Source: Deltaproteobacteria bacterium
GTDB taxonomy: Bacteria; Desulfobacterota; Desulfobaccia; Desulfobaccales; 0-14-0-80-60-11
Length of the DNA stretch: 64,000 nucleotides
Direction of reading: 5' to 3'
Assembly (NCBI GenBank): GCA_030018495.1
Contig: JASEFS010000013.1
Coordinates: 1-64,000, forward strand
Made by a program: the position numbers and the translations under genes. Numbering within the stretch: the stretch's first letter is position 1; each line of letters begins with the position of its first letter. Positions 631 through 47,211 of this stretch are shown here, piece by piece. The notes under the pieces were generated by a model. That model was not told where the DNA came from, made no database searches, and worked only from the letters and a program-made list of their open reading frames with translations.

Positions 631-686
631 TCGGGAGCACGGGCATCTTGCCCGTGCTCGCACAGGCTGGAAGCCTGTGCTCCCGA
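631..686. repeat. nested palindromic repeat (GCACGGGC / GCACAGGC family)
   Basis: Two palindromes stand in tandem: GAGCACGGGCA-TCT-TGCCCGTGCTC at 635-659, and GCACAGGCT-GGA-AGCCTGTGC at 660-680. The whole is also bracketed by TCGGGAGCAC (631-640) and its complement GTGCTCCCGA (677-686), so one long stem or two short hairpins are possible. Related copies lie at 32055-32075, 32503-32552, 44794-44814, 45293-45330 and 54481-54506. It resembles REP/REPIN elements. Confidence 0.75.
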
Positions 687-43529: not shown

Positions 43530-44669
43530 ATGGACGCCTCACGTTTAGATTATCTCAGCAAGGCCCGCCGCATCGTCCTCAAACTGGGGAGCGCCGTGCT
43601 TACCGCGGCATACGGCTTGAACCATCTTCTCATACAGCGCCTGGTGGCCGAAATCGCCGCGCTGCGCCAAAACGACCGTCAGTTTGTCTTGGTCTCGTCC
43701 GGCGCGGTGGCCGCGGGGGTTCATAAGCTTAAGCTCAGTGAAAAGCCCCAAGGCATCCCCCAGCAGCAGGCCGTGGCCGCAGCCGGTCAGAGCAGCCTGA
43801 TGTACACCTATGAGGAAGCCTTTGCCGTCCACGCCGTCAAGGTGGCCCAGATTCTCCTCAGCCATGACGACCTGGCGGCCAGAAGCCGCTTCCTTAACGC
43901 CCGCAACACCATCTTCACCCTGCTTCAATGGGGGGTTTTGCCCATCATCAACGAAAACGACACCGTGGCCACGGAGGAGCTGAAATTCGGGGACAACGAC
44001 AACCTGGCCGCGTTGATTTGCAACCTGGTGGAGGCCGACCTGCTCATCCTCCTGACCAACACCGACGGCCTTTACGCCCGGGACCCCAGGGAAGACCCGG
44101 ACGCCCCGCTTCTTTCCGTGGTGGAAACCACCGACCCGAAACTGCACAAAGTGGCGGGCAAACGCCCCAACGCCTTGGGGCGGGGCGGCATGCTGAGCAA
44201 AATTCAGGCCGTCCGCAAGGCCGGAGCCATCGGCATCCCCAGCGTTATTGCCAACGGCCTTACGGCGGGAATTTTGGAGGCGGTCTTCTCAGGCCGGGAA
44301 GTGGGCACCCTGTGCCTGCCCCAAGCCCAGAAACTCAAGAGCCGGCAATATTGGCTGGCGTACAATGTCAACCCGGAAGGGGCCATCCTGGTGGACACCG
44401 GCGCCCGGGAGGCCCTGGTGCGCCAAGGCAAAAGCCTTCTGCCCGCGGGCGTCCTCGAGGTCTTCGGGGGCTTCCGCAAGGGTGCGCCCGTCAGCCTCAT
44501 GGACCCGGACGGCCAAACCTTCGCGGTGGGCCTGAGCAACTACTCCAGCCGGGACATCAACCGCATTAAGGGCAAAAAGACTCAGGAAATCGCCCAGTCC
44601 CTGGGCCACAAGGACTACGACGAAGTCATTCACCGGGACAACCTGGTGGTTTTTCCGGAGTTTGGGTAG
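43530..44669 (+). CDS. proB: glutamate 5-kinase
   Basis: First enzyme of proline synthesis, 379 residues. The amino-acid kinase domain is intact (RRIVLKLGSAVLT, VSSGAVAAGVHKL, NENDTVATEELKFGDNDNLAAL, LLTNTDGLYARDP) and a C-terminal PUA domain follows (GAILVDTGAREALVRQGKSLLP). Feedback inhibition by proline is expected for the family. Its partner proA lies 1.3 kb downstream, separated by a toxin-antitoxin-like island rather than adjacent as usual. Confidence 0.96.
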   Translation: MDASRLDYLSKARRIVLKLGSAVLTAAYGLNHLLIQRLVAEIAALRQNDRQFVLVSSGAVAAGVHKLKLSEKPQGIPQQQAVAAAGQSSLMYTYEEAFAVHAVKVAQILLSHDDLAARSRFLNARNTIFTLLQWGVLPIINENDTVATEELKFGDNDNLAALICNLVEADLLILLTNTDGLYARDPREDPDAPLLSVVETTDPKLHKVAGKRPNALGRGGMLSKIQAVRKAGAIGIPSVIANGLTAGILEAVFSGREVGTLCLPQAQKLKSRQYWLAYNVNPEGAILVDTGAREALVRQGKSLLPAGVLEVFGGFRKGAPVSLMDPDGQTFAVGLSNYSSRDINRIKGKKTQEIAQSLGHKDYDEVIHRDNLVVFPEFG

Positions 44670-44702
44670 GGGCGTCAATGGCGGGGGGATTAAAGGATTT
44701 TT

Positions 44703-44765
44703 GGGGAGGGTGCTAAGGGTCGCGGACCTTTACCCCCTCCCCCAAACCCCCACCCCCAATCCCAT
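44703..44765. repeat. C-rich inverted repeat, copy 4, G-quadruplex capable on the minus strand
   Basis: GGGGAGGG then AAGGGTC pairs with GGACCTTTACCCCCTCCCC, followed by C runs of five, five and three separated by 1-3 bases. Same family as copies near 1, 563, 690, 47224 and 57602. It follows proB. Confidence 0.65.
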
Positions 44766-44793
44766 AAACGGTCGATAGCATATATGATGGATA

Positions 44794-44814
44794 GCACGGG
44801 CATCCTGCCCGTGC
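44794..44814. repeat. palindromic repeat (GCACGGGC family)
   Basis: GCACGGGCA-TCC-TGCCCGTGC, directly before the DUF4160 gene. Confidence 0.8.
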
Positions 44815-44832
44815 AGAACCGGAAATTACTCA

Positions 44833-45066
44833 ATGCCCACCATTCTCCGCATTCAGGGTTACCGGTTTTTCTTTTTCAGTAACGAGGGCTTCGAAAAGCC
44901 TCATATCCATGTGGAATCTGGAGATAACTACGCCAAATTCTGGCTGAACCCGGTGGCCTTGGCTTCTTCCTTCGGATATAATTCTTCTGAAATCACCCGC
45001 TTAAGAAAATTGGCAGAAAAACACGAAAAACTTTTCTTGGAGAAGTGGCATGAGTACTTTGCCTAA
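44833..45066 (+). CDS. DUF4160 domain protein
   Basis: A 77-residue protein with the DUF4160 pattern MPTILRIQGYRFFFFSNEGFEKPHIHVESG. Such proteins are found next to DUF2442 genes and have been proposed as toxin-antitoxin pairs; the function is not established. It overlaps the next gene by 17 bases. Confidence 0.85.
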   Translation: MPTILRIQGYRFFFFSNEGFEKPHIHVESGDNYAKFWLNPVALASSFGYNSSEITRLRKLAEKHEKLFLEKWHEYFA

Positions 45067-45286
45067 AGCCAAGGTAGTGTTGATTATGGATGTTTCCTTT
45101 GTTGATGATTCCATGCAAGTCAATTTGACCGATGGCCGGGAGATCCGAGTGCCTTTGGAATGGTTCCCCAAACTCAGGGACGCCGGCCCGGAAGCACGCC
45201 GTAACTGGCGCCTGATCGGCAAAGGCATCGGCATCCATTGGCCGGATTTGGACGAGGATTTATCATTGGAAGGACTTTTAAAATAA
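45050..45286 (+). CDS. DUF2442 domain protein
   Basis: A 78-residue protein with the DUF2442 signature LTDGREIRVPLEWFPKL and NWRLIGKGIGIHWPDLDEDLS. The pair with DUF4160 is common on mobile or accessory DNA. It starts at ATG 45050 within the preceding gene, so the two are coupled. Confidence 0.85.
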   Translation: MSTLPKAKVVLIMDVSFVDDSMQVNLTDGREIRVPLEWFPKLRDAGPEARRNWRLIGKGIGIHWPDLDEDLSLEGLLK

Positions 45287-45292
45287 TTTCTA

Positions 45293-45330
45293 CATCCTGC
45301 CCGTGCCGTAGCCGCAGGCTTCAGCCTGCG
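45293..45330. repeat. palindromic repeat, half copy plus CGCAGGCT palindrome
   Basis: CATCCTGCCCGTGC is the right half of the GCACGGGC palindrome, and CGCAGGCT-TC-AGCCTGCG follows at 45313-45330. It separates the DUF2442 and HEPN remnants. Confidence 0.6.
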
Positions 45331-45360
45331 CTGTTCATTTTTACATGAGGACAAGTTGCC

Positions 45361-45907
45361 ATGGCCAGCCGCGCCCGTGATTGGTTCAATCAGGCCCTTC
45401 GTGACTTGGAGCAGGCCGAAGATTCCCAAAAAGCCGAGCGTCACGAGTGGGCTTGCTTCGCGGCCCAGCAGGCCGCGGAAAAAGCGGTGAAAGCTCTGCA
45501 CCTGCATCATGGGCAGGAGGCCTGGGGCCACATCGTGGCTAGACTGTTACAAGAGCTGCCGGAAGAAATTTCCGTTACAGAAAAATTAATCGAAAAGGCG
45601 AAAGTGCTGGACAACTTTTACATTCCGGCCCGCTATCCCAACAGTCCCGGACGTCCTGCGCATCGGCTATTTCGGCTCCTATGCTCGGGGTGACTGGGGC
45701 GTGGGCAGCGACCTGGACGTGATTATTATCGTAGATAAATCAGCTAAGCCCTTTGAAATGCGGGCCAGTGAGTGGGATACCCGGGAAATCCCCGTCCCCA
45801 CGGATGTCCTGGTTTATACGCAGGAAGAATGGGGCAATCTCCATCAGACCCGAATTTCCATCAGGAAAATAGAACTTGAAACAATATGGATTTATGGTCA
45901 GGGATAA
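45361..45907 (+). pseudogene. fused remnants of a HEPN-MNT toxin-antitoxin pair
   Basis: The first 333 bases encode a HEPN domain start (RDWFNQALRDLEQAEDSQKA, ACFAAQQAAEKAVKALHL, DNFYIPARYPN), which then runs into SPGRPAHRLFRL and a stop at 45693 without its usual C-terminal half. In the next frame, from about 45644, the sequence reads PDVLRIGYFGSYARGD and GVGSDLDVIIIV, the GS-x-ARG-x-SD-x-D core of a minimal nucleotidyltransferase, to 45907. So the end of HEPN and the start of MNT seem to be deleted, with the join near 45640 out of frame. Neither product should work. A GTG-started 68-residue piece at 45701-45907 could still be translated. Confidence 0.75.
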
Positions 45908-45954: not shown

Positions 45955-47211
45955 ATGGATATTGCTAAAAACATCAGAGAAATATCTTTCGAAGCCAAAC
46001 AAGCCGCCCGGCCCTTGGGGAGCCTCTCCCGGGCCGTCAAGGACAACGTGCTTTTGCGCATGACGGAGCTCTTGAAGGAGCGCCAGGCGGAAATCCAGGC
46101 GGAGAACGCCAAGGACGTGGACGCGGCCAAAAAGGACGGCCAGGGCGCGGCCTTCATCGACCGGCTCACCCTGTCCGACAAGGTCATGGACTCCATGGTC
46201 AAGGGGCTCAAGGAAGTGGCCGCGTTGCCCGACCCGGTGGGCGAGGTCACCAAAATGTGGCGCCGGCCCAACGGCCTCCTGGTGGGCCGGGTGCGCATCC
46301 CCCTGGGCGTCATCGGCATCATCTACGAATCCCGCCCCAACGTCACGGTGGACGCCGCGGCCCTGTGCTTGAAGAGCGGCAACAGCGTCATCCTGAAAGG
46401 CGGCAAAGAGGCCATCAACTCCAACCTGGTCCTGGCCAGGGTGATGCAGGAAGCCCTCTGTGAAGCCGGTATCCCCAAAGGGGCCATTCAGGTCATCCCC
46501 TCCGTGGCCCGGGAAGCGACCCTGGAGCTTCTCAAACAGGACGACCTGGTGGACCTGATCATCCCCCGGGGCGGCGAGGGCCTTATCCGCTTTGTGGCCG
46601 AGAACTCCCGCATCCCGGTCCTGAAGCACTATAAAGGCGTCTGCCACATATTTGTGGATGACGGCGCGGACCTGGACCTGGCCGAAACCGTGTGCTTCAA
46701 CGCCAAGGTGCAGCGCCCCGGCGTGTGCAACGCCATGGAGACCATGCTGGTGCACGAGGCCGTCGCGCCGGTCTTCCTGCCCCGCATGCACCACCGCTTT
46801 CGGGAAGCCGGGGTGGAACTGCGGGGCTGCCCCCAAACCCAAAAAATCGATCCCAACGTCAAGCCCGCCACCGCGGAAGACTGGGGCAACGAATTCCTTG
46901 ACCTCATCCTGGCCGTGAAAGTGGTGCCGGATATGGACGCGGCCATGGAGCATATCGCCCAATACGGCTCCAACCACACCGAGGCCATCATCACCAGGGA
47001 CCTGGACCGGGCGCAGCGGTTCCTTAAGGAAGTGGACTCCTCCTTGGTGCTGGTGAACGCCTCCACCCGCTTCAATGATGGCGGCGAACTGGGCCTGGGC
47101 GCGGAAATCGGCATCAGCACCAGCAAACTCCACGCCTTCGGCCCCATGGGCCTGGAGGAACTCACCACCACCAAGTTCATCGCCTATGGCTCAGGGCAAA
47201 TCCGGACCTGA
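45955..47211 (+). CDS. proA: glutamate-5-semialdehyde dehydrogenase (gamma-glutamyl phosphate reductase)
   Basis: Second enzyme of proline synthesis, 418 residues. NADPH-dependent aldehyde-dehydrogenase fold with catalytic cysteine in [15 protein letters not shown] (about C260), the [22 protein letters not shown] region, and [13 protein letters not shown] at the end. It starts at ATG 45955 with GGGGAG upstream. It is separated from proB by the accessory island. Confidence 0.96.

Follow-up and report, generated by a model that had tools for sequence, protein, structure and literature searches.

DhiTA, the DUF4160/DUF2442 gene pair of Dickeya dadantii 3937, has been shown to act as a toxin-antitoxin system (PMC8198452), and gene deletion has established a toxin-antitoxin function for the DUF4160/DUF2442 persistence module of a Thermus plasmid (PMC12724237). 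HEPN-MNT pairs constitute the type VII toxin-antitoxin systems, in which MNT nucleotidylates HEPN (PMC7641770, PMC11586414); they have a precedent inside a biosynthetic operon, the lysine operon of Thermus (PMC2701414). Repetitive extragenic palindromes (REPs) are short repeats tagged by GTAG, whose mobility is attributed to RAYT transposases (PMC3733652). Parts of all three kinds lie together between proB and proA in the locus described here, which belongs to a 64,000-nucleotide window, the whole stretch of DNA analysed, from a 3.46-Mb genome of 63 contigs (G000) whose closest ProA relatives are Desulfobaccales or deltaproteobacterial MAGs.

Gene content of the proB-proA gap

The 1,288 bp between proB and proA, both full length, hold an intact DUF4160/DUF2442 pair followed by a broken HEPN/MNT pair (Table 1), so that the separation of the two genes described in a first-pass annotation of the window stands, with the domains identified by Pfam. 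Upstream of proB is what we take, from reading the translation, to be a gene for an Obg-like GTPase, and 3' of proA lie genes presumed on the same basis to be nadD- and rsfS-like. The repeat copy right after proB is distinct from both palindromes; it recurs in most family genomes at ~74-95% identity, in many places in G000-G021. The sole match to RNA families in the gap was a chance-level microRNA family far under cut-off, and a promoter/terminator scan of the gap gave no clear excess over shuffled sequence, the REP2 hairpin scoring as terminator-like. Many relatives have a gene of DUF2007 type (PF09413, as tested for the L006 copy) immediately 5' of proA (L002, L003, L006, L007, L010, L133); it also occurs downstream of proB in L136 and is absent from the window.

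Table 1. Positions of genes, remnants and repeats in and around the gap (window coordinates)
Feature	Position	Strand	Basis
proB, glutamate 5-kinase, 379 aa, intact	43530..44669	+	TIGR01027 1.5e-125, plus PUA domain
Dispersed repeat copy, CCC/GGG-run-rich	44692..44772	no strand	DNA search with island sequence, matched by query positions 26-106
REP1, perfect 9-bp hairpin GCACGGGCA-TCC-TGCCCGTGC	44794..44814	no strand	dispersed repetitive extragenic palindrome
DUF4160 protein, 77 aa, intact, DhiT-like toxin candidate	44833..45066	+	PF13711 1.6e-17
DUF2442 protein, 78 aa, intact, DhiA-like antitoxin candidate	45050..45286	+	PF10387 3.2e-23
Second copy, in direct orientation, of the REP1 right half CATCCTGCCCGTGC at 44801-44814	45293..45306	no strand	sequence comparison
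REP2, GTAG-tagged 8-bp hairpin CGCAGGCT-TC-AGCCTGCG	45308..45330 (hairpin 45313-45330)	no strand	dispersed REP
HEPN remnant, 15 foreign residues following 95 native ones before the stop	45361..45693	+	PF05168 3.5e-28, profile positions 1-92 of 117
MNT remnant, keeps GSYARGDWGVGSDLD	45641..45907	+	PF01909 3.5e-10, from profile position 14
Junction left by the 162-bp deletion, as judged against intact relatives	45645..45646, uncertain by a few bases	no strand	alignment with intact relatives
proA, glutamate-5-semialdehyde dehydrogenase, 418 aa, intact	45955..47211	+	NF001221 1.6e-182

The DUF4160/DUF2442 pair

Both domain matches exceed the Pfam cut-offs, and DUF4160 comes first and overlaps DUF2442, in the order also found in relatives. 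We file the window DUF4160 as a relative of DhiT rather than as DhiT itself because its score against the DhiT equivalog model NF048015 (25.7 bits) falls below the cut-off of 100. Among solved structures, DUF2442 gave a weak match to PDB 3k8r and DUF4160 none that was convincing. Compared with relatives, DUF4160, DUF2442 and the HEPN remnant all have dN of 0.11-0.26 and dS above 1 or saturated, which shows past evolution under purifying selection; being intact and having been so constrained, the pair is probably active. By analogy with the Dickeya and Thermus systems, DUF4160 would be the toxin here and DUF2442 its neutralising partner.

Close DUF4160-DUF2442 pairs occupy other sites in relatives, lying between a pgpA-like and a cinA-like gene in both G007 and G014; the G007 DUF4160 is 79% identical to that of the window, and the G014 copy is interrupted by stops. 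Since homologous pairs thus sit elsewhere in relatives, we read the pair as mobile. Two further pairs (L169, G012:C41; L170, G002:C16) adjoin what seems from its sequence to be the gene for the large carbamoyl-phosphate synthase subunit, again a housekeeping context for this gene combination. In two distant pairs, L171 (G010:C144) and L172 (G009:C29), words of 39 nt and 22 nt are common to both flanks.

The broken HEPN-MNT pair

Aligned with the intact pairs of five relatives (G003, G004, G007, G008, G009), the window pair is complete except for 162 bp absent after ~45645, which bears out the earlier proposal that a deletion broke it. The loss takes the histidine of the HEPN motif RYPNSH, the HEPN C-terminus and the start of MNT. 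HEPN of the five intact relatives has 129 aa and contains RYPNSH, which conforms to RX4-6H, the HEPN RNase motif (PMC11586414, PMC3710099); the window copy reads RYPNSP, continues with 14 more foreign residues and lacks 34 C-terminal residues. MNT has lost its start and ~34 N-terminal residues and retains GSX10DXD, the next standard start in its frame (GTG, 45701) lying past the GS motif. The first-pass annotation had the two parts joining out of frame near 45640, as after a deletion; they do meet in different frames, near 45645, but the offset is already present in the intact relatives, whose HEPN and MNT genes overlap in different frames, and 162 bp make a whole number of codons; the offset is thus inherited rather than a product of the deletion.

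Adjacent HEPN (PF05168) and MNT (PF01909) domains are present in the window; a complete HEPN with RX4-6H is absent, and of a complete MNT gene with GSX10DXD only the motif remains. By these features we class the pair as a remnant and not as a member system. The motif histidine is not universal in PF05168 (TM0613 lacks it), and replacements of it have been noted (PMC3710099), so the loss of the 34 C-terminal residues is the stronger sign of inactivation. The copy is most likely dead; its HEPN would formerly have been an RNase under the control of MNT nucleotidylation. The deletion is probably recent, because the HEPN remnant shares the purifying selection seen in DUF4160 and DUF2442; for its age within the genus the one available comparison, G001, is an 84% complete genome in which proA had no match.

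A second intact HEPN-MNT of the same subfamily, suggested earlier as something to look for, was not found in the rest of the genome. On contig C14 (L165, G000:C14:37000-38200) a distant MNT gene precedes a HEPN gene that is short (78 aa) and seems truncated, the opposite gene order. Against a library of anti-phage defence systems MNT gave weak matches to candidate systems only (PDC-S09, best 3e-7), and the other gap proteins gave none.

Dispersed palindromes

The hairpins at 44794-44814 and 45313-45330 are perfect and exceed chance, which predicts 0 and 0.14 matches over the window. That palindromes lie on both sides of the island, as first described, is correct in so far as there are two of them; the right one, however, stands between DUF2442 and HEPN, and only the DUF4160/DUF2442 pair is bracketed. 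Both are ordinary dispersed REP repeats of a known kind. In the genome the REP1 core has 27 sites (18 exact, 9 with one mismatch) and the REP2 core 13 copies. REP2 reads GTAGC-CGCAGGCTTCAGCCTGCG and many other copies in the genome are GTAG-tagged too, as expected of GTAG REPs; the REP1 tag reads GATAG in the window and GGTAG in the copy on C54. Four Y1_Tnp genes are present, and no RAYT gene was seen flanked by exactly these REPs. One, on C10 (L161, G000:C10:20300-22600), encodes a Y1-type transposase and holds a REP1-like, non-identical palindrome, GCACAGGCATCTTGCCTGTGC, in its 5' coding part. The proB-proA slot of G007, G021 and G016 also has REP-like hairpins, of different sequence. Elsewhere in the window (635-680), two adjoining REP palindromes of the CACGGGC and CACAGGC types form a composite element.

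Occupancy of the slot in relatives

The comparison covered ~20 family genomes, and the HEPN search 22, in which every HEPN match of at least 60% identity lay in the proB-proA slot. The pair is intact between proB and proA in G003, G004, G007 and G008; in G009, whose contig does not include proB, it lies intact immediately 5' of proA. The pair is damaged or partly lost in three more: G006 keeps a C-terminal HEPN scrap; in G016 a Y1 transposase gene stands upstream of MNT where HEPN would be; and G015 has MNT with a frameshifted HEPN, a single-base lesion of a type that may be an assembly error, the relatives being mostly or all MAGs. HEPN-MNT is absent from the slot in family members G005, G011 and G021 and in order members DYEV and VGSX. 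Its presence at the same place in five relatives intact, and in three more broken or partly lost, marks HEPN-MNT as an old resident of the slot. The simplest reading is that the pair entered once, in an ancestor of the family, was inherited and decayed repeatedly; against this stands the HEPN tree, whose deep node is poorly supported and in which G000 does not group with G003.

In the ProA tree G003 is the sister of G000 (support 0.99). Its slot contains DUF2442 (78%) and no DUF4160, neither palindrome adjoins DUF2442, and DUF2442 lies 37 nt from HEPN as against 74 nt in the window; the shorter spacing and the lack of palindromes fit a later REP insertion in the window lineage. G003 is also one of the genomes in which the toxin candidate is gone and its partner kept (DUF2442 there, MNT in G016 and probably in G015). 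Judged from these gene remnants, toxin candidates were lost first in several places, and this recurrent loss of toxins with survival of antitoxins is the most informative pattern in the comparison.

Proposed history and alternatives

In the account that we consider very likely, toxin-antitoxin genes were gained and decayed in the ordinary way within a run of housekeeping genes, with parts of known kinds and no new system. The proB-proA gap would be an insertion-tolerant slot in an obgE-proB-proA-nadD-rsfS run. A HEPN-MNT pair would have entered it in the family ancestor and been inherited there, and a DhiTA-like DUF4160-DUF2442 pair would have been added upstream before the split from sister G003; later, in the window lineage, the 162-bp deletion would have eliminated the region of the HEPN active site together with the start of MNT, and REP elements would have landed around the DhiTA-like pair. 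Gene content, the deletion, the conserved slot and the dispersal of the repeats are observed; the order of events is what we infer.

The first-pass annotation had proposed that repeat-bounded insertion would explain the layout. In its most specific form, DUF4160-DUF2442 would have entered a composite REP1-REP2 element by way of the 14-bp direct repeat CATCCTGCCCGTGC (44801 and 45293), and the flanks, minus one repeat copy and the pair, would indeed read as full REP1 followed by full REP2. Two of the four exact genome copies of CATCCTGCCCGTGC flank the pair, and the other two (C14, C54) each have another REP-like palindrome a few bases after them, like the right-hand copy. Yet G003 has DUF2442 in the slot, 37 nt from HEPN, with neither palindrome; the nearest homologues (G007, G014) lack hairpins or notable shared words in their flanks; and HEPN-MNT, which is outside the repeats and older, would go unexplained. 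We consider such an insertion unlikely. For the island as a whole the proposal fares no better, given the five relatives with intact HEPN-MNT in the same slot, the DUF2442 of G003 without palindromes and the dispersed nature of the REPs: the annotation had itself named the same gene order without repeats in relatives as evidence to the contrary, and the slot comparison comes close to that. A further reading, in which toxin-antitoxin pairs are brought or directed into runs of housekeeping genes by REPs and their RAYT transposases, could draw on the REP parts flanking the window pair and on the hairpins or shared repeat words flanking more distant DUF4160 pairs in G009 and G010; we give it a very low probability.

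Alternatively, the genes might owe their retention to regulation of the proline genes and not to a toxin-antitoxin role, given how long HEPN-MNT has resided in the same slot across several genera and how antitoxin genes outlast toxins (DUF2442 in G003, MNT in G016, probably in G015). Ordinary decay already predicts antitoxin persistence, however, and the slot lacks these genes in G005, G011, G021, DYEV and VGSX, which leaves regulation quite improbable. Least credible to us is a HEPN-MNT remnant that still functions, whether fused by a frameshift or made as two short proteins. The frames overlap at ~45587-45690, where a +1 shift could join them, and the MNT catalytic motif is kept, but 54 codons of conserved sequence are gone, including the C-terminal part of HEPN and the MNT N-terminus, and the MNT frame has no standard start before the GS motif. 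Intact relatives encode two separate overlapping genes, on which ground we reject a frameshift fusion; no conserved fusion or frameshifting was seen.

Comparison with known systems

Read as gain and decay, the locus offers a toxin-antitoxin slot inside a conserved biosynthetic run that has been occupied, is shared by different genera and has been vacated again, toxins apparently going before antitoxins in several lineages; it is a useful worked case of toxin-antitoxin decay, in line with existing knowledge. The palindromes resemble GTAG REPs (PMC3733652) as short GTAG-preceded hairpins in many copies, in a genome that also has suitable Y1 transposase genes, and differ from typical ones in the modest copy number of each exact core and in the GATAG of REP1. 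The HEPN-MNT pair belongs to the HEPN-T/PF05168 subfamily of type VII systems, represented by PDB 1ufb (TT1696) and 1o3u (TM0613). An intact relative matches 1ufb over nearly its full length (2.7e-41) and keeps RYPNSH and GSX10DXD, whereas the window copy is without the motif histidine, the C-terminal end of HEPN and the beginning of MNT; HEPN precedes MNT here, the reverse of the usual order in HEPN-MNT (PMC3710099). The DUF4160/DUF2442 pair shares with DhiTA and the Thermus module (PMC8198452, PMC12724237) the same two Pfam domains, a toxin candidate encoded first and overlapping genes; it differs from them in an overlap of 17 nt instead of 3 and in missing the DhiT equivalog cut-off.
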